From positions 4,418,012 to 4,482,011 of the forward strand of contig NZ_CP139992.1 of the NCBI RefSeq assembly GCF_034424155.1: a DNA stretch of 64,000 nucleotides, written 5' to 3'. Both the position numbers and the translations under genes were made by a program. The DNA is from Hafnia alvei (GTDB lineage Bacteria; Pseudomonadota; Gammaproteobacteria; Enterobacterales; Enterobacteriaceae). Positions 15,711 through 55,197 of the stretch are shown here, piece by piece (within the stretch, counting starts at the first letter, position 1; each line of letters begins with the position of its first letter). Under the pieces are notes generated by a model. That model did no database searches. It saw only the letters and a list, made by a program, of their open reading frames with translations, and was not told where the DNA came from.

Positions 15711-18700
15711 ATGCAGGTCAGCAGAAGACAGTTCTTTAAGATCTGCGCTGGCGGTATGGCAGGCACCACGGCGGCGGCGCTGGGCTTTGCTCCAGCGGTA
15801 GCGCTCGCGGAAACTCGGCAGTACAAACTGCTGCGAGCACGCGAAACCCGTAATACCTGTACATACTGTTCTGTCGGCTGTGGGCTGTTGATGTACAGCC
15901 TCGGCGACGGCGCAAAAAACGCAAAAGAGAGCATTTTCCACATTGAAGGGGATCCGGATCATCCGGTAAACCGTGGCGCTCTGTGCCCGAAAGGCGCAGG
16001 TCTGGTGGATTTCATCCACAGCGAATCTCGTCTGAAATACCCTGAATACCGCGCTCCCGGCTCTGATAAATGGCAACGCCTCACTTGGGACGATGCTTTT
16101 GAGCGCATCGCCAAGCTGATGAAAGCCGACCGTGACGCCAACTTTATTCCGACCAACGATCAGGGAACCACGGTTAACCGCTGGCTCTCGACCGGTATGC
16201 TCTGCGCCTCTGCATCGAGCAACGAAACAGGTTTATTAACCCAAAAATTTAGTCGCGCCCTCGGCATGCTTGCCGTGGATAACCAAGCGCGCGTCTGACA
16301 CGGACCAACGGTAGCAAGTCTTGCTCCAACATTTGGTCGCGGTGCGATGACAAACCATTGGGTTGATATTAAAAATGCCAACCTGATCGTCGTTATGGGT
16401 GGCAACGCCGCCGAAGCGCATCCCGTTGGGTTCCGCTGGGCGATGGAAGCCAAGATCCATAACAAAGCTAAGCTGATCGTTATCGATCCACGCTTTACCC
16501 GAACTGCCTCGGTGGCAGACTTTTACACGCCGATCCGCTCCGGTACCGACATTGCTTTCCTGTCGGGCGTATTGCTGTATCTGATAACCAACAACAAAAT
16601 TAACGCTGAATACGTTAAGAACTACACCAACGCCAGCCTGCTGGTGCGCGAAGACTATGCCTTCGACGACGGTTTATTCAGTGGCTATAACGAAGAAAAA
16701 CGTACCTACGACAAAACGACCTGGAACTATCAGCTCGACGAAAACGGCTTCGCCAAACGCGATGACACACTGCAAGATCCGCGCTGTGTGTGGAATATGC
16801 TGCGCGAACATGTCAGCCGCTATACGCCAGAAGTGGTGGAAAACGTCTGCGGCACGCCAAAAGCCGATTTCCTCACCGTTTGCGAATATATCGCTGAAAC
16901 CAGCGCCGCTGATAAAACAGCCTCGTTCCTGTATGCCTTGGGCTGGACCCAGCACTCCGTCGGTGCGCAAAACATCCGCACCATGGCGATGATCCAGCTG
17001 CTGTTGGGCAACATGGGGATGGCCGGTGGTGGCGTTAACGCCCTGCGCGGTCACTCCAACATTCAAGGTCTAACCGACTTAGGATTGCTGTCCACCAGCC
17101 TGCCGGGCTATCTCAATTTGCCGTCAGAAAAACAGGCCGATCTGCAAACCTATCTCACTGCGACAACGCCAAAACCAACGTTACCGGGTCAGGTAAACTA
17201 CTGGGGTAATACGCCTAAGTTCTTCGTTAGCCTGATGAAATCTTTCTACGGCGATAAAGCGCAGAAAGAAAATAACTGGGGCTTTGATTGGCTGCCGAAG
17301 TGGGACAAAGGCTACGACGTTCTGCAGTATTTCGAAATGATGTCGCAGGGCAAAGTGAATGGCTATCTATGCCAAGGCTTTAACCCGGTGGCCTCGTTCC
17401 CGAACAAAAACAAAGTGGTGAAATCACTCTCCAAGCTGAAATTCTTGGTGACGATTGATCCTCTGAACACCGAAACCTCGACGTTCTGGCAAAACCATGA
17501 CGAATTCAACGACGTTGATCCGTCACAGATCCAGACAGAGGTCTTCCGCTTGCCTTCAACCTGCTTCGCCGAGGAAAACGGTTCTATCGTGAACTCTGGC
17601 CGCTGGTTGCAATGGCATTGGAAAGGAGCAGACGCCCCGGGTGAAGCGTTAAATGACGGTGAAATTCTGGCCGGTATTTTCCTTCGCCTGCGTGAAATGT
17701 ATGCCAAAGACGGCGGCGCCGTGCCTGAGCAAGTCCTTAATATGACGTGGGATTACCTCACGCCAGAAAATCCTGCGCCGGAAGAAGTGGCAAGGGAAAG
17801 CAACGGTAAAGCGCTGGCTGATTTGATTGACCCAGCTACCGGCGCTGTTCTGGTGAAAAAAGGTCAACAGCTTAGCTCCTTTGCTCAGCTGCGTGACGAC
17901 GGCACCACCTCAAGCGGCTGCTGGATCTTCGCCGGAAGCTGGACGCCAGAAGGTAACCAGATGGCGCGCCGTGACAATAGCGATCCGTCCGGTTTAGGCA
18001 ATACTTTAGGTTGGGCATGGGCATGGCCGCTGAACCGCCGCATTCTGTATAACCGCGCTTCAGCCGATCCATCGGGTAAACCGTGGGATCCAAAACGTCA
18101 GTTGCTGGAGTGGGACGGCGCAAAATGGTCAGGCATTGATATTCCTGACTACAGCACCGCCGCGCCAAACAGCGGTGTCGGTCCGTTCATCATGCAGCCG
18201 GAAGGTATGGGACGCCTGTTTGCGATTGATAAAATGGCCGAGGGCCCGTTCCCTGAACACTATGAGCCGTTTGAAACGCCGCTGGGAACCAACCCGCTGC
18301 ATCCAAACGTGGTGTCTAACCCTGCTGCTCGCGTGTTTAAAGACGATCTGGCTGCCATGGGCAAAGCCGATAAGTTCCCCTACGTGGGCACTACTTACCG
18401 CCTGACCGAGCATTTCCACTACTGGACTAAACATGCCCTGCTGAACGCCATTCTTCAGCCTGAGCAGTTTGTCGAAATCGGTGAAACGCTGGCAGAGAAA
18501 AAAGGTATCAAGCATGGCGATACCGTGAAAGTCAGCTCCAACCGTGGCTACATCAAAGCCAAGGCGGTGGTGACCAAACGTATCCGCACGCTGAAAGTGG
18601 ACGGTAAAGATATCGATACCATCGGTATTCCAATCCACTGGGGTTACCAAGGCGTGGCGAAGAAAGGCTTTATCGCCAATACCCTGACACCGTTTGTCGG

Positions 18701-27429: not shown

Positions 27430-27568
27430 AAAAAAAAAGCCAGCACCCGAGCTGGCTAAAAAAACACTGGAAGCAATGTGAGCAATGTCGTGCCTTCTCG
27501 AAAGGACTCCTTGGATAGCGTGAGTCAAATATGAGCTACTTGACTGACGTTTCTCTAAGGTTGTCTTC
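27430..27568 (-). ncRNA. ryhB: RyhB, iron-responsive small RNA
   Basis: The minus strand carries the diagnostic RyhB pairing core (GCACGACATTGCTCAC followed by ATTGCTTCCAGTG, 27466-27494). A rho-independent terminator then follows (AGCCAGC / GCTGGCT stem with T-runs, 27430-27464). A Fur box lies upstream at 27581-27599, and aaaT (yhhY) is the neighbour, as in E. coli. RyhB represses mRNAs of iron-using proteins with Hfq when iron is scarce. The 5' end is inferred from a TTGATA-N18-CATTCT promoter overlapping the Fur box. That gives about 138 nt, longer than the 90-nt E. coli RNA. Confidence 0.93.
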
Positions 27569-48042: not shown

Positions 48043-50652
48043 ATGCCACGGAGAATGGACTCTTCTCTGCACGGTGTTGCCTGTGCTGTTGCGCAGGCAG
48101 TTGGTGTTTTGCCATTGGCGCTGTTTCCCTGCTTTGCCATGGCGGATAATTACTATAACCCTGCATTTTTATCTAACGACCCATCGGCCGTGGCAGATCT
48201 ATCTCGCTTTGAAAAAAACAGTAGCCAAGCGCCGGGAAAATACCTCGTTGATCTTTACCTTAACGATGTACTTATCTCAACGGAGAACATCAATTTTGTC
48301 GCATCGACAAGCTACAAAAGTAAGATTATCCCCTGCCTAACCAGCAAACGTTTAGGGGACATGGGCGTAAATCTAAAAGCCGTTCCCGATCTGGAGAAAC
48401 TGCCCGCCGATGCCTGTGTTTCTTTAACGGATAGTTTTCCCGGTGCGCGCGCCGACTTTAACATCAAACAGTTACGCCTAGACATTTCCCTACCGCAGGC
48501 TGCATTAACGCAGAACGCACGTGGCTATATTCCCCCTGAACAGTGGGATGATGGCATCAACGCCCTAATGTTTAACTACAACTTTACCGGCAGCAATAGC
48601 TGGGGCGATAACGTCAGTAATAATTATTATCTCAATCTACAAAGCAATCTCAACGTAGGCGCGTGGCGGGTGCATGACTACTCAAGCGGCACCTATAACG
48701 GCGGTGGTTCTAGCGACAGCAGCCATGACTGGCAACATATCAGCACCTATGTGCAGCGCAGCATCATTCCGCTCAAAGGCGAACTGACACTCGGCGACAG
48801 CTATACACCATCAGACGTATTCGACAGCCTGGGTTTTCGCGGCATACAAATCGCCTCCGACGATAATATGCTGCCAGACAGCCTGCGTGGTTTTGCCCCA
48901 ACCGTGCGCGGCATTGCTAAAAGCCACGCCAAAGTTACGGTAAAGCAAAACGGCTATGTCATTTATCAAACTTATGTTTCGGCCGGTGCGTTTGAAATTA
49001 ACGACCTCTATCCCACGTCATCCAGCGGTGATATGGACGTTGAAATTGAAGAGGCGGACGGCAGCAAAAGCACCTATTCCGTACCCTACTCCGCCGTGCC
49101 GCTGTTGCAGCGCGAAGGTCGAGTGAAATACGCCGTTACCGGTGGCCAATACCATTCCAACAACCAAGATCAGGACGAAAATGAGTTTGCTCAGGCAACG
49201 ATAATCTGGGGGTTACCGTACGGGATCACCGCCTACGGCGGAGTGCAACACTCGGATAACTACCAATCTGAAGCATTAGGAATGGGGGTAAATCTGGGTG
49301 ATGTTGGAGCGCTGTCCGTCGACATCACCCAAGCCAGCAGCACGCTGGCAGATGACAGCCAACACACAGGACAGTCGCTGCGTTTTCTCTACGCCAAATC
49401 ATTAAACTCAACCGGCACTAACTTCCAGCTCATGGGCTATCGCTACTCAACAGAAGGCTTTTATACGCTGGATGAAACCACCTATTCTCACATGAGCGGC
49501 TACAACACTGATAATACTCAAGATGACGAGCAGGACGAAGAACCTGATTGGACAGATTATTACGATCTTTATTACAACAAACGCGGGAAAATACAGGTCA
49601 ATATTTCCCAACAAGTGGGGAGCAACGGTTCAATTTACGTCACGGGCAGCCAGCAAAGCTATTGGAACACCGACGAAACTGACAGCGTTGTTCAGTTGGG
49701 CTACAGCGGTAACTATCACGATGTTAATTACAGCGTTTCGTGGAACTACAACAAATCGCAGGGTCAGCCAGAAGCGGATCAGCAGGTTGCCATTAATTTC
49801 TCCGTGCCAATCGGAAAATGGCTTTCACCGGGTGGCGCTGACAACAGCGATGTGTACAGCTCACCAAACAACGCCTATGCCACCTACAACAACAGCACCG
49901 ATAACCACGGCAAGATGCAGCAAATGGCGGGGCTCAGCGGCACGCTGCTGAAAGACAATAACCTCAGCTACACCGTACAGCAGGGCTACGCCAATAAAGG
50001 CGACGGCACCAACGGCAACGCCTCACTGAACTACCAAGGCACCTACGGCAACAGCAATATTGGCTACAACTATAGCAGCGGCTATCAGCAAGTGGACTAT
50101 GGCATAAGTGGCGGCATGGTAGCGCATGCCAACGGCATTACCCTCAGCCAGCCACTCAGCAGCACTAACGTGCTGATCAAAGCGCCGGGCGCGGCAAACG
50201 TAGACGTAGAAAACAGCACCGGCGTAAAAACCGACTGGCGCGGCTATGCCGTAGTGCCTTACGCCACCACCTACCGCCAAAACCGCATTGCGCTAGATAC
50301 CAATACGCTGGGCGACAAAGTCGATCTCGACAACGCGGTAGTGAACGTAGTGCCTAGCGAAGGGGCGCTGGTGGTGGCCGATTTCAAAGCCCACACCGGC
50401 CTACGCGCACTGGTCACCTTGCTCTATCACCACAAGCCGGTGCCGTTTGGTGCCACCGTTAGCCGCAGCGATAGCGAAAATGGCACCATCGTCGGCGACG
50501 ACGGCCAAGCCTATATGCTCAGCATGCCATTAAGCGGTGATTTGCAGGTGCAATGGGGCGACGATGCCGATCAGCAATGCAAAGTACATTATCAACTGCC
50601 AGAAAGTGAAATGAATAAACCTCTTACCCAGTTCAAAGCGGAATGCCAATAA
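48043..50652 (+). CDS. Outer-membrane fimbrial usher (FimD-like) of operon 2
   Basis: An 869-residue usher. Signal peptide about 1-34 (PCFAMA), then the N-domain YYNPAFLSNDPSAVADLSRFE. The plug region has INDLYPTSSSGDMDVEIEEADGS and the C-terminal domains have PFGATVSRSDSENGTIVGDDGQAY and a final Cys pair. It starts three bases after the chaperone stop and overlaps the adhesin start (TAATG). Confidence 0.93.
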   Translation: MPRRMDSSLHGVACAVAQAVGVLPLALFPCFAMADNYYNPAFLSNDPSAVADLSRFEKNSSQAPGKYLVDLYLNDVLISTENINFVASTSYKSKIIPCLTSKRLGDMGVNLKAVPDLEKLPADACVSLTDSFPGARADFNIKQLRLDISLPQAALTQNARGYIPPEQWDDGINALMFNYNFTGSNSWGDNVSNNYYLNLQSNLNVGAWRVHDYSSGTYNGGGSSDSSHDWQHISTYVQRSIIPLKGELTLGDSYTPSDVFDSLGFRGIQIASDDNMLPDSLRGFAPTVRGIAKSHAKVTVKQNGYVIYQTYVSAGAFEINDLYPTSSSGDMDVEIEEADGSKSTYSVPYSAVPLLQREGRVKYAVTGGQYHSNNQDQDENEFAQATIIWGLPYGITAYGGVQHSDNYQSEALGMGVNLGDVGALSVDITQASSTLADDSQHTGQSLRFLYAKSLNSTGTNFQLMGYRYSTEGFYTLDETTYSHMSGYNTDNTQDDEQDEEPDWTDYYDLYYNKRGKIQVNISQQVGSNGSIYVTGSQQSYWNTDETDSVVQLGYSGNYHDVNYSVSWNYNKSQGQPEADQQVAINFSVPIGKWLSPGGADNSDVYSSPNNAYATYNNSTDNHGKMQQMAGLSGTLLKDNNLSYTVQQGYANKGDGTNGNASLNYQGTYGNSNIGYNYSSGYQQVDYGISGGMVAHANGITLSQPLSSTNVLIKAPGAANVDVENSTGVKTDWRGYAVVPYATTYRQNRIALDTNTLGDKVDLDNAVVNVVPSEGALVVADFKAHTGLRALVTLLYHHKPVPFGATVSRSDSENGTIVGDDGQAYMLSMPLSGDLQVQWGDDADQQCKVHYQLPESEMNKPLTQFKAECQ

Positions 50653-51746
50653 TGAAAACGTTCTCTATTTTTAATCTTTCGATATTTAAAAAAATAATAC
50701 TGGGGCTATTTTTAATTATTGGCACAACGCAGGTGGCAAAAGCCTATACCGGAGCTTGCTCCGCCGATAATGGCACTTATAATTACTACGACAATTTCGG
50801 CATGCTCACCGTTGTTGACCCTAAAGGTAATCAACCAGGTTATCTATTCCCCCGTGCTTATAATTGGAACCTTGGAGGCGAATATACTGCGACTTGCGAT
50901 TGCGACCCTGCAGAAGAAAAAAAAGCAGTTGTTAACCCAGATATATATTATAAAGCATCTAGCACTCTTTCAATAGGTCACACAGATGGAACATTACAGT
51001 TTTATAAAATTAATGACTATTTAGAAGTATCTACATTAGTTTGGATTGGTGGGATGCTAAAGCAATATGTAGCTACTCCATTTCATGATATCAATAACGA
51101 AGCATCTACACAGGAACATGCACGCGTAGGTTACGTGTGCGGAGCAAATGCCAACTCTCAATTTTCGTCTGGTAGTAAGGGATTGTTATGGCTTTATATC
51201 ACCAAGCCATTCGTTGGCACAACCTATATTGAGAATGTTAGAGTTGTCGATCTTTATGGTACCACCATACCAGGAAGTTATGGTGGTACCCCGTTATCCT
51301 CCATTTGGGTAAATGGACAAGTGACCGTACCGCAAAACTGTGAAATTAACGCAGGGCAAATTATCACCGTTGATTTTGGCAAAATATGGTCTGGTGATTT
51401 CACCACCAAAGGCCAAAAACCCGATGGCTATGTAGCCAAAAATATTAAAGCCTCAATGAAATGCAATAATATTAATGCCTACACCAATTTAACTATTCGC
51501 TTCCAAAGTGAAATATCCTCCGATTATCCCGATGCGATTAAAACCAATAACCCCGATATTGGCGTAGAAATTATCGATGATAATGGCCATCTAGTATTAC
51601 CCAATACGGGGCTTATTCCTTTTCATATCGATGATAAATATGAAGCTAGCGTAACGTTTAAAGCCCAGCCGGTTAGCACTACGGGAAATCCGCCTTCTGC
51701 CGGTCAGTTTCAGGCGCAGGCCTATATTCGCGTTGATTTTGCCTGA
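50652..51746 (+). CDS. Fimbrial tip adhesin (FimH-like) of operon 2
   Basis: A 364-residue adhesin with signal peptide (about 1-32). The N-terminal lectin-like domain (to about 225) contains several Cys (GACSADNG, ATCDCDPAEE, GYVCGAN). The C-terminal pilin domain begins near VPQNCEINAG and ends AQAYIRVDFA. The coding region for the lectin half is markedly more AT-rich than the rest of the operon, suggesting domain exchange. Ligand unknown. The start overlaps the usher stop by one base. Confidence 0.83.
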   Translation: MKTFSIFNLSIFKKIILGLFLIIGTTQVAKAYTGACSADNGTYNYYDNFGMLTVVDPKGNQPGYLFPRAYNWNLGGEYTATCDCDPAEEKKAVVNPDIYYKASSTLSIGHTDGTLQFYKINDYLEVSTLVWIGGMLKQYVATPFHDINNEASTQEHARVGYVCGANANSQFSSGSKGLLWLYITKPFVGTTYIENVRVVDLYGTTIPGSYGGTPLSSIWVNGQVTVPQNCEINAGQIITVDFGKIWSGDFTTKGQKPDGYVAKNIKASMKCNNINAYTNLTIRFQSEISSDYPDAIKTNNPDIGVEIIDDNGHLVLPNTGLIPFHIDDKYEASVTFKAQPVSTTGNPPSAGQFQAQAYIRVDFA

Positions 51747-51755
51747 GGATAAACC

Positions 51756-52280
51756 ATGCACAAATTCACTTTTATGTTACTGGCAATATTCTCAGCGCCT
51801 CTTTTCGCAGATCTTGGGCACGTTAACCTGATCATGACTGGCACGGTGCTACAGGAAAGCTGCGATATCAGCGCCGATACCAAAAACCAAACGGTGACCA
51901 TTGGCTCGTTTTCATCGGCCGAATTTAAATCCGTGGGCAGCGTCACTACCGCCGTGCCATTTACTATTCAGCTCAACAAATGCTCGCCAAATATCAGCAC
52001 CGCAGGCGTCACCTTTAACGGCACCCAGTTTGGCTCCGACCCCACCCAACTGGCGCTAACCGACACCAGCGGCAGCGGCGATTTAGCCGTCGGCGTGGTG
52101 GTGCAGGTGTTGGATAACAACGGGCCTATCGCCCTAAACAGCGTCAACGGCACGCGCTACGCGCTGCATCCGGGTGATAAAAATAAGCTGCCATTTTCAT
52201 TACGTTATCAGGCCACACAGATACCGGTTAAGCCGGGGAATGGTTCTGCCGTTTTATATTTTTCAATGGACTACCAATAA
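51756..52280 (+). CDS. Minor fimbrial subunit (FimF/FimG-like) of operon 2
   Basis: A 174-residue pilin-like protein with signal peptide (about 1-19). Cysteines in QESCDISAD and LNKCSPNIS, TAGVTFNGTQF core and C-terminal SAVLYFSMDYQ with penultimate Tyr. GAGGATAAACC precedes the ATG. Probably a tip adaptor joining adhesin and rod. Confidence 0.86.
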   Translation: MHKFTFMLLAIFSAPLFADLGHVNLIMTGTVLQESCDISADTKNQTVTIGSFSSAEFKSVGSVTTAVPFTIQLNKCSPNISTAGVTFNGTQFGSDPTQLALTDTSGSGDLAVGVVVQVLDNNGPIALNSVNGTRYALHPGDKNKLPFSLRYQATQIPVKPGNGSAVLYFSMDYQ

Positions 52281-52813
52281 TGAAATCCAATACAGGCGTG
52301 TTTCATTATGGTTTATTGACGCTAATGATGGCTTCAGGCACCTGTTTAGCCTCCGATGACGGTAAAGGCACCATCAATATTATGGGCGATATCCACAACA
52401 ATACCTGCGTGGTGGATACCACCGAGCTAAACGTCGATATGGGCAATGTGGCAACCAAACAGTTTTACCAGACGGGAAACGTGCCTCGGCCAGTGCTTTT
52501 TAATATAGCTCTCAAAGATTGCGGCCCAGATGTCAGCGGCGTTGCCGTGAAATTCACCGGCGAGTCTGCCGCAGCCAATAGCCCTCTGCTAAAACTCGAT
52601 GCCTCTGCTGGCGCCGCTACGGGGGTAGGGATTTCCCTTATGGATAAGAACAAAACGCAGATCGCCATCAACGATAGCAGCAAAATTTATCCCCTTACTG
52701 CGAGTCAAGAAACGGCGAGGCTGGATTTTTACGCCCAATATTCGGCCTACACCCTACCGATAACCGCTGGTCCGGCAAGCGCTAGCGTCATCTTTACCAT
52801 GACCTATCAATAA
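52280..52813 (+). CDS. Minor fimbrial subunit (FimG-like) of operon 2
   Basis: A 177-residue pilin-like protein with signal peptide (about 1-23, TCLAS). NIMGDIHNNTCVVDTTELNVDMG, second Cys in LKDCGPDVSG, C-terminus ASVIFTMTYQ. The start overlaps the previous stop by one base (TAATG), as does its own stop with the next gene, giving tight coupling. Confidence 0.86.
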   Translation: MKSNTGVFHYGLLTLMMASGTCLASDDGKGTINIMGDIHNNTCVVDTTELNVDMGNVATKQFYQTGNVPRPVLFNIALKDCGPDVSGVAVKFTGESAAANSPLLKLDASAGAATGVGISLMDKNKTQIAINDSSKIYPLTASQETARLDFYAQYSAYTLPITAGPASASVIFTMTYQ

Positions 52814-53520
52814 TGAATATTTACGCTGTTTGGTGCATCTTTCCGTTGTTAATGTTTAGCTTCGCTGTTCAAGCCGGAGTGGTTATCGGCGGCACACGCT
52901 TTATCTACCCAGAGGCGGCGGACTCCATCTCATTTGAGGTTAAAAACACCAGTTCGGATACCTATTTAGTCAATACCAAAATTACCCAAGAGAGCGGCAG
53001 TGCTCCGTTTATCGCAACGCCGCCGTTATTTCCTATCTCTCCGGGTGATGCGAATAAAATCCGCATTGTTCGCACCGGTGGCAGTTTACCCAACGATCGT
53101 GAAAGCTTATTCCATCTGTATATCGCCGCGATCCCCTCAGGAAAAGCGCCCACAAACAGCCTACAGATTGCGGTGAAATCCCGCATGAAATTATTTTATC
53201 GGCCTGAAAACCTAAGAAAGGGCGCCGCAGAGGCTTGGCAAAAACTGGAATGGTCACAAACAAACAGAGAATGGCAGGTGAGAAATCTTTCGCCCTATTA
53301 CATCACGCTCAGCCAGTTAAAGGTCAATAACCGCCCCAATAATGCCGTTATCATGCTCGCGCCCTTTGAACAGCAACGCTTTACGGGATGCGAAAAAAGC
53401 CAGCCATGCTCAATTTCATGGCGAAGTATCAATGATTACGGCGCATTAACGCCTGTCTGCCATGCTCAAATTAGCGGTGACAAACTTCGACCAAACTCAT
53501 GTGAGACTAACGAGAAATAA
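52813..53520 (+). CDS. Second periplasmic fimbrial chaperone of operon 2
   Basis: A 235-residue PapD-like chaperone with signal peptide (about 1-21, FAVQAGVV). GTRFIYPEAADSISFEVKNTS, PPLFPISPGDANKIRI, LPNDRESLFHLYIAAIPSG and VKSRMKLFYRPENL are conserved. The C-terminal domain carries extra cysteines (TGCEKSQPCSI, PVCHAQ, NSCETNEK) absent from the first chaperone, suggesting disulfides. Confidence 0.86.
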   Translation: MNIYAVWCIFPLLMFSFAVQAGVVIGGTRFIYPEAADSISFEVKNTSSDTYLVNTKITQESGSAPFIATPPLFPISPGDANKIRIVRTGGSLPNDRESLFHLYIAAIPSGKAPTNSLQIAVKSRMKLFYRPENLRKGAAEAWQKLEWSQTNREWQVRNLSPYYITLSQLKVNNRPNNAVIMLAPFEQQRFTGCEKSQPCSISWRSINDYGALTPVCHAQISGDKLRPNSCETNEK

Positions 53521-54890: not shown

Positions 54891-54928
54891 GCGAACCTCC
54901 GAGAGGAGGAAAAAATGCTGAACTTCAT
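54887..54928 (-). CDS. Short ORF overlapping the NSS transporter start
   Basis: Thirteen codons, MKFSIFSSSRRFA, with its own CCGGAG ribosome-binding site seven bases upstream. Its TGA overlaps the transporter ATG (ATGA). The transporter ribosome-binding site lies inside this ORF and can be hidden by a CCTCC/GGAGG hairpin (54896-54909), so translation of the short ORF should expose it. A second hairpin (54936-54941 with 54958-54963) can hide the short ORF's own site. Confidence 0.5.
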   Translation of the reverse strand: MKFSIFSSSRRFA

Positions 54929-54977
54929 GTTGATGCTCCGGTGTTGAATAAATGCTGCCGGAGGGTGCTAGAAACAA

Positions 54978-55027
54978 CAAGGCCGCCCTTCCGGCGGCCT
55001 TGTGAAATTTGAATGCGTGCAGGCCAC
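54978..55027 (-). terminator. Attenuator: terminator and antiterminator hairpins upstream of the NSS transporter
   Basis: On the minus strand, segments 3 and 4 (54993-55002 and 54978-54987) form a perfect 10-bp stem CAAGGCCGCC / GGCGGCCTTG, followed by TTGTTTC: a terminator. Segment 2 (55021-55027, GTGGCCT) can instead pair with seven bases of segment 3 (54994-55000, AGGCCGC). Segment 2 also pairs with the leader start region (TGCACG at 55016-55021 with CGTGCA at 55071-55076). This is the layout of amino-acid biosynthetic attenuators. Confidence 0.75.
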
Positions 55028-55075
55028 CTAGATGATAAGGAGAAGGAGGCTGAGTTGGAGGTTAACTGCTTGCAC
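55028..55075 (-). CDS. Leu/Ile-rich leader peptide of the NSS transporter
   Basis: GTG-initiated 15-codon ORF encoding MQAVNLQLSLLLLII, stop TAG. TTAGGA precedes the start at nine bases. Six of fifteen codons are Leu and two Ile, with an uninterrupted Leu-Leu-Leu-Leu-Ile-Ile run just before the stop. The stop codon abuts segment 2 of the attenuator. A ribosome stalled at the Leu/Ile run would leave segment 2 free and favour the antiterminator. Confidence 0.7.
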   Translation of the reverse strand: MQAVNLQLSLLLLII

Positions 55076-55197
55076 GTTAGGATTTCCTAAAATTGAATAC
55101 CTTTTCAAACTAATCAATGTGCATCGTGCCTGCAATCATTATTTTTCACTTTTACCTTTCGGCAACATCCCGTTGTGCCAAATGCTTCCCTCACTGG

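Follow-up and report, generated by a model that had tools for sequence, protein, structure and literature searches.

A predicted leucine-responsive transcription attenuator upstream of an NSS-family transporter gene in Hafnia alvei and its relatives

On the minus strand of the window (the whole 64,000-nucleotide stretch of Hafnia alvei DNA that was analysed) lies a gene for a transporter of the NSS family. It scores 179.5 bits against PF00209 (cut-off 27) and is the only PF00209 gene in the Hafnia genome, which has two BrnQ homologues elsewhere. Upstream of its leader is uspB, also on the minus strand. A fimbrial cluster converges on the NSS gene from the other side (48043-53520, plus strand; a usher-like protein of 869 amino acids, small adhesin-like proteins and a PapD-type chaperone), with a terminator-like repeat at 53553-53518 between the two. 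Elsewhere in the window, Rfam matches RyhB (27431-27497, minus strand, 90.7 bits) and the selenocysteine insertion element SECIS_3 (16293-16351, plus strand, 84.3 bits). The leader region and the gene comprise the following features.

55138-55165, minus strand: candidate sigma-70 promoter, TTGCCG-16-AATAAT (pattern match, 9/12)
55088-55085, minus strand: Shine–Dalgarno sequence of the leader, AGGA, 9 nt 5′ of the GTG
55076-55071, minus strand: segment 1, CGTGCA, pairing with TGCACG at 55021-55016 (1:2 protector)
55075-55028, minus strand: leader ORF, 15 codons with a GTG start, VQAVNLQLSLLLLII (from the sequence and the homologous Leu leaders of relatives)
55060-55058, 55054-55052 and 55048-55037, minus strand: six predicted Leu control codons, CTC, CTC and CTC CTT CTC CTT, respectively (from the stall model below)
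55028-55021, minus strand: segment 2, GGTGGCCT, 5′ strand of the antiterminator, pairing with 55000-54993
55003-54977, minus strand: segments 3 and 4, intrinsic terminator with an 11-bp stem and a GGAAG loop, T-rich tail to 54971
54890-53577, minus strand: NSS-family transporter gene, 437 amino acids (PF00209, E = 1.4e-52)

The leader ORF has the position and the 15 codons given to it by a sequence-only reading of this DNA, with the correction that its start is GTG and not ATG. The peptide is V(M)QAVNLQLSLLLLII, where V(M) stands for the GTG first codon; the stop codon is TAG (55030-55028), and two Ile codons lie directly 5′ of it. Predicted to be translated, this leader carries the conserved run of Leu that marks an attenuator. 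From the candidate promoter, RNA would start about 55 nt 5′ of the leader; the match is weak because such matches arise by chance about twice in the window. In Morganella and Proteus, an extended −10 element (TGnTATAAn) lies 60-77 nt 5′ of the leaders.

The three alternative pairings that the same reading had described are present, the terminator and the antiterminator at the sites it had named, and they are mutually exclusive. The 1:2 pairing is present in the minimum-free-energy fold. The terminator (3:4), with arms CAAGGCCGCC/GGCGGCCTTG, has 10 bp, or 11 with an outer A-T pair, and its tail is T-rich but interrupted, with no clean T-run. Segment 2, GGTGGCCT, is complementary to the 5′ arm of the terminator, and the resulting antiterminator (2:3) pairs GTGGCCT (55027-55021) with AGGCCGC (55000-54994) over 7 bp, which become 8 bp when the stop codon contributes its final G. 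The 141-nt leader folds at −40.9 kcal/mol (z = −3.46), and 0 of 200 dinucleotide shuffles folded as well. A predicted intrinsic terminator is located between leader and gene, and would be excluded by an antiterminator at the leader stop codon.

We gathered orthologues of the transporter gene from genome contigs and whole genomes and read the region upstream of each. Leaders of the same kind were found in Edwardsiella (MTMPVQRRLLNLLLLLST and MTMSTQRRLLNLLLLLST), Morganella (MNAMMNRQLSLNLLLS and MNAIINHLLSLNLLLS), Proteus and its close relatives (MNMNTNNRLLGLNLLLLR, MNINTNNRLLGLYLLLLY, MKAHVNILRLLSLNLLLR and MNVYINNRQLSLNLLLLS), Xenorhabdus szentirmaii (MNIKNRAMNAIVNLLLSLLSK) and a second genome of the Xenorhabdus group (MNAIVNLLLSLLSLSE). 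Leu is the sole residue conserved as a run across the otherwise diverged leaders of this clade, and every leader stop codon adjoins or overlaps segment 2; from the start of the stop codon to the start of the terminator there are 29-34 nt in the 10 sequences that were modelled. Across 12 sequences, all cells (100%) of the terminator pairs keep their pairing, and at two of the pairs both partners have changed; pairing falls to 17-64% when the register is slid. In a table of 18 sequences that includes Aeromonas, each helix has 144 cells, of which 131 are paired for 2:3 and 143 for 3:4. Compensatory changes thus occur in the terminator, and segments 2, 3 and 4 covary between clades. The 1:2 stem keeps a 4-bp core in most relatives, with one double change (A-U to G-C, inside the Proteus group) and one pair broken in Edwardsiella; its outer part is specific to Hafnia, and relatives have AGCC/GGCU or GGCC/GGCC. 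Because the covariation amounts to few independent events, we place more weight on the joint conservation of the peptide, the position of the stop codon and both stems.

The Hafnia leader is more than a chance arrangement, because the same architecture and covarying stems precede the orthologous genes of relatives. This bears on a rival explanation, namely that the hairpin is a plain terminator of the uspB transcript, that the hydrophobic ORF beside it is accidental, and that the NSS gene has a promoter of its own further downstream. Such an explanation would suit the end of uspB, which is only 120 nt upstream on the same strand with no other terminator-like site between it and the leader. However, Morganella, Proteus and Xenorhabdus keep the leader and stems without uspB upstream in the stretches that were read, and the Leu codons, segment 2 and the spacing, none of which a terminator needs, are conserved. 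We consider it the most improbable of the readings weighed here.

A covariance model was built from 12 attenuators and searched in 392 genomes of the family. It gave 17 strong matches (67-129 bits), 16 of which stand directly before this NSS gene, and none of the 17 precedes an unrelated gene; several of the matched attenuators had been used to train the model, so only the matches outside the training set carry independent weight. The seventeenth match, in a genome of the Edwardsiella group (locus L129 in genome G137, same genus as Edwardsiella), precedes a decayed NSS copy: the gene is broken by stops and deletions, and the attenuator in front of it persists, its Leu run shortened. Among nine weak matches that were inspected (33-38 bits), one is a plain terminator and eight are a different, putative attenuator with two adjacent Trp codons before a tryptophanyl-tRNA synthetase gene.

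This apparent Trp attenuator, with its terminator, occurs in several enterobacterial genera, with leaders such as MNTNVPLLRSNRWWLPA and MNISMHSTHNQSWWRLF (loci L130, L133, L134, L137, L138 and L140, at about position 1500-1640, and L131 and L132 on the other strand). A literature search found no description of an attenuator on the tryptophanyl-tRNA synthetase gene.

The upstream regions that we read also include enterobacterial orthologues without an attenuator, namely those of Xenorhabdus and Photorhabdus (two Xenorhabdus excepted) and of two further genomes (G145 and G027), so the attenuator is not indispensable. In the gene tree, the Xenorhabdus/Photorhabdus clade breaks up the Leu type, which is consistent with one loss.

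Which amino acid would be sensed was addressed with a stall model, in which a ribosome of fixed footprint is set at each leader codon and the RNA is folded to the end of segment 3, kinetics being left out; it was applied to 10 Leu-type sequences. In Hafnia, stalls up to Leu12 give the full antiterminator in the model, which engages 8 bases of the terminator arm (−13.8 kcal/mol). A stall at Leu13 gives it only in part, and it is lost once the ribosome stands at Ile14, Ile15 or the stop codon; with the ribosome at either Ile codon, 0-3 bases of the terminator 5′ arm are paired, against 8 at Leu10-Leu12. The other nine sequences behave in the same way: in each, the antiterminator disappears within the final codons of the Leu run or immediately beyond them. 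The sequence-only reading had held that the whole Leu/Ile run is spaced so that a stalled ribosome would free segment 2; in the model this applies to the Leu codons, but not to the Ile codons.

Outside Hafnia, the codons used also favour the attenuator, as the rare codon CUA is in excess. In the loci of Morganella, the Proteus group and Xenorhabdus, 43-83% of the leader Leu codons are CUA, against 0-10% in the adjacent genes of those loci (small samples); the count is 2 of 7 in Edwardsiella and none in Hafnia, where CUC and CUU are used. The leu operon has CUA as its natural control codon, and replacement of this codon by CUG in Salmonella lowered sensitivity (PMC1183508).

Sensing of both leucine and isoleucine, in the manner of the ilv operon, would account for the two Ile codons immediately 5′ of the Hafnia stop codon. 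These codons are, however, peculiar to Hafnia: the Leu run is conserved in relatives, but no other genus has Ile in the control run, and the position of Ile-Ile is occupied by ST, LS, LR, LY, SK or SE. A ribosome stalled at either of them would also cover segment 2 and block the antiterminator in the model. We rejected isoleucine as a second signal and regard dual sensing as highly improbable. Stall model and conservation together indicate that Leu is a usable signal and Ile is not. Of the earlier proposal that scarcity of charged tRNA-Leu or tRNA-Ile switches the transporter on, the Leu half is therefore predicted to hold and the Ile half fails; likewise, of the two operons to which its logic had been compared, leu is the proper comparison and ilv is not.

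Leucine alone is thus the preferred signal, and the locus is very probably a ribosome-mediated transcription attenuator that responds to leucine; the gene it controls would encode an importer of leucine and, probably, of other branched-chain or hydrophobic amino acids. The earlier proposal of an attenuator with mutually exclusive pairings on an NSS gene is supported, for its leucine signal, by homologous leaders, covarying stems and the stall model. Comparison between genomes shows which parts are present, that they are conserved and covary, and where the Leu codons sit; from this we infer stalling and a transcriptional response of the following kind. A ribosome would follow RNA polymerase as the leader is transcribed. 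With charged Leu-tRNA plentiful, it would reach the stop codon and cover segment 2, which would let the 3:4 terminator form and end transcription ahead of the gene. With Leu-tRNA scarce, it would stall in the Leu run (positions 6-13), leaving 2:3 to pair and the polymerase to read through. If the leader were not translated, 1:2 would form, and with it the terminator.

A second layer of control, on which the sequence-only reading had not remarked, may lie between the terminator and the transporter gene, where three further features were found.

54963-54958 and 54941-54936, minus strand: possible hairpin CTCCGG/CCGGAG over the ribosome-binding site of ORF2 (from the sequence)
54928-54887, minus strand: ORF2, MKFSIFSSSRRFA*, overlapping the NSS start codon as ATGA
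54896-54909, minus strand: hairpin CCTCC-TCTC-GGAGG, which would mask the NSS ribosome-binding site (from the sequence)

The overlap suggests that ORF2 is translationally coupled to the NSS gene; in the read-through mRNA, its translation would probably open the hairpin over the ribosome-binding site of the transporter. ORFs of 8 to 41 codons with the same overlap and differing sequence occur in Aeromonas, Morganella, the Proteus group and two Xenorhabdus. In the Edwardsiella upstream regions compared, no ORF with an ATGA overlap was found, and a similar CTCCGG/CCGGAG hairpin lies over the NSS ribosome-binding site. The lowest-energy fold of the isolated 102-nt Hafnia stretch differs from the CTCCGG/CCGGAG hairpin.

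In six loci of Morganella, Proteus and X. szentirmaii, inspection by eye shows a CCTGCTGGTGG-like sequence just 3′ of the terminator that can pair with the loop and the 5′ arm of the latter, and so may form yet another alternative structure. This sequence is followed by a T-run and then by a repeat of the GGAACT/AGTTCC type at the ORF2 ribosome-binding site.

The best solved relative of the transporter is MhsT, a transporter of hydrophobic amino acids. Residues are numbered here as in LeuT, by a correspondence assigned by way of MhsT. The Na2 ligands (T354 and S355) are kept, as Ser/Thr and Ser, in all aligned rows. The canonical Na1 ligands are missing: Hafnia has Ala and Ser at N27 and N286, and among 90 aligned rows of the subfamily none has Asn at the former or Asn/Asp at the latter position. 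In the subfamily, N27 is replaced by Ala or Ser, N286 by Ser, Ala, Thr or Gly, and the R30 gate by Lys. Coupling to one Na+ is possible for these transporters.

Given the Leu attenuator on its gene, the transporter is probably an importer of leucine (branched-chain amino acids), and probably also takes other branched-chain or hydrophobic amino acids. In the Xenorhabdus and Photorhabdus genomes without an attenuator, the NSS gene lies 3′ of an intact brnQ or of an N-terminal brnQ fragment, which lends independent, circumstantial support to a role in branched-chain amino acids. At the 12 loci concerned, the gene looks as if it had landed in or beside brnQ. The import of branched-chain amino acids proposed in the sequence-only reading is accordingly supported as probable by the Leu leader, the brnQ adjacency and the kinship with MhsT.

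Cousins of the gene have leaders of other composition, which likewise went unremarked in the sequence-only reading. One Aeromonas clade has a terminator upstream, and in a scan 10 of its loci also had an antiterminator of 7-11 bp and a Phe-containing leader (such as MSPLIARFGRFFSSQER and MSPIFALSGRFFSSQER, and MSLFTLSFGRFFNRFFAVA in A. diversa); we have moderate confidence in a Phe signal here, as no Phe other than that of GRF is invariant. Four loci of the Iodobacter group have MNTNMINFFAGWWRF-type leaders with an invariant WWRF, ending in GWWRF, and upstream of these leaders is sequence that by eye ends like another NSS protein. One locus from a MAG has a Tyr-Tyr-Tyr leader, MMNLTRIYSYYYLACPLAARWVAFI. 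In the stall model, the control residues of the Phe, Trp and Tyr types precede the position at which the antiterminator is lost, although in A. diversa this is true of just a part of the Phe codons. Automatic detection overlooked the attenuators of E. piscicida and E. anguillarum, for which it reported another hairpin, and those of Iodobacter, where the antiterminator is interrupted; these were read by eye, and representatives were put through the stall model. The Phe and Trp types each form a single clade in the tree. Upstream of more distant, class-level NSS homologues, 69 regions (29 loci plus 40 regions, with at least one gene in both sets) contained no leader in which one amino acid forms a run, and no hairpins beyond the kind expected by chance; attenuators of this type thus seem restricted to the present clade.

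At the pocket position equivalent to LeuT F259, the transporters have Leu in the Leu and Phe types, Ala in the Trp type and Thr in the Tyr type, which fits larger ligands in smaller-lined pockets, for one Trp clade and one Tyr row. This bears on the possibility that leucine is sensed only as a general starvation signal, the main substrate being another hydrophobic amino acid. Relatives of MhsT carry several hydrophobic amino acids, and the Phe, Trp or Tyr leaders on orthologous genes elsewhere could be read in the same sense. By contrast, in characterised attenuators the control codons normally specify what the operon itself provides, the gene is associated with brnQ in Xenorhabdus, and the residue at the F259 position differs between the Leu- and Phe-type proteins and those of the Trp and Tyr types. 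We judge a pure starvation signal unlikely, and prefer import of the amino acid that the leader senses. We put at slightly better than even the chance that control codons in this NSS clade have moved among Leu, Phe, Trp and Tyr in step with the substrate pocket of the transporter, which would make the leader a read-out of specificity.

Few bacterial NSS homologues have a known substrate, although the family is the model for human neurotransmitter transporters; regulation here yields a testable substrate prediction, with Leu for Hafnia, Edwardsiella, Morganella and Proteus, whereas the cousins would take Phe, Trp and Tyr. Should uptake agree, the attenuator codons and the F259-equivalent position would form a natural specificity series.

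The mechanism is a known one on a new target, the NSS gene, for which we found no prior description. Our literature search, with the main prior survey beyond its reach, found no published case of a leader peptide or attenuation on an NSS or sodium transporter, and the main text of the survey by Naville and Gautheret (PMC2965389) does not mention symporters. The closest known system is the leader of the leu operon (leuL; RF00512), which likewise has a run of Leu codons, shares rare CUA codons with most of the relatives, and has a mutually exclusive terminator and antiterminator. It differs in controlling leuABCD, and the NSS leader is much shorter, with the Leu run at its end. Membership of the NSS leader in the Rfam family Leu_leader (RF00512) was rejected, as nothing in the window matched even at E values up to 10; the Hafnia genome's own leu leader, before a leuA-like gene, matches RF00512 with 67 bits. 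As in trpL, the control codons lie a few residues before a stop codon that is next to segment 2, and the GWWRF of the Iodobacter NSS leader resembles the GWWRTS of trpL; the target gene is another one, and the control amino acid in Hafnia is other than Trp. Vitreschak and co-workers reportedly predicted attenuators and T-boxes on amino acid transporters, including those of histidine; such predictions also used attenuation of a transporter gene to predict substrate, but concerned histidine and other transporter families. MhsT and LeuT share the family, the hydrophobic substrate pocket and the conserved Na2 ligands with the Hafnia protein, in whose subfamily, unlike in MhsT and LeuT, the Na1 ligands are replaced throughout. 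With this locus, a textbook mechanism would gain a transporter target on which ORF2 and the masked ribosome-binding site probably add a second layer of control, at translation.
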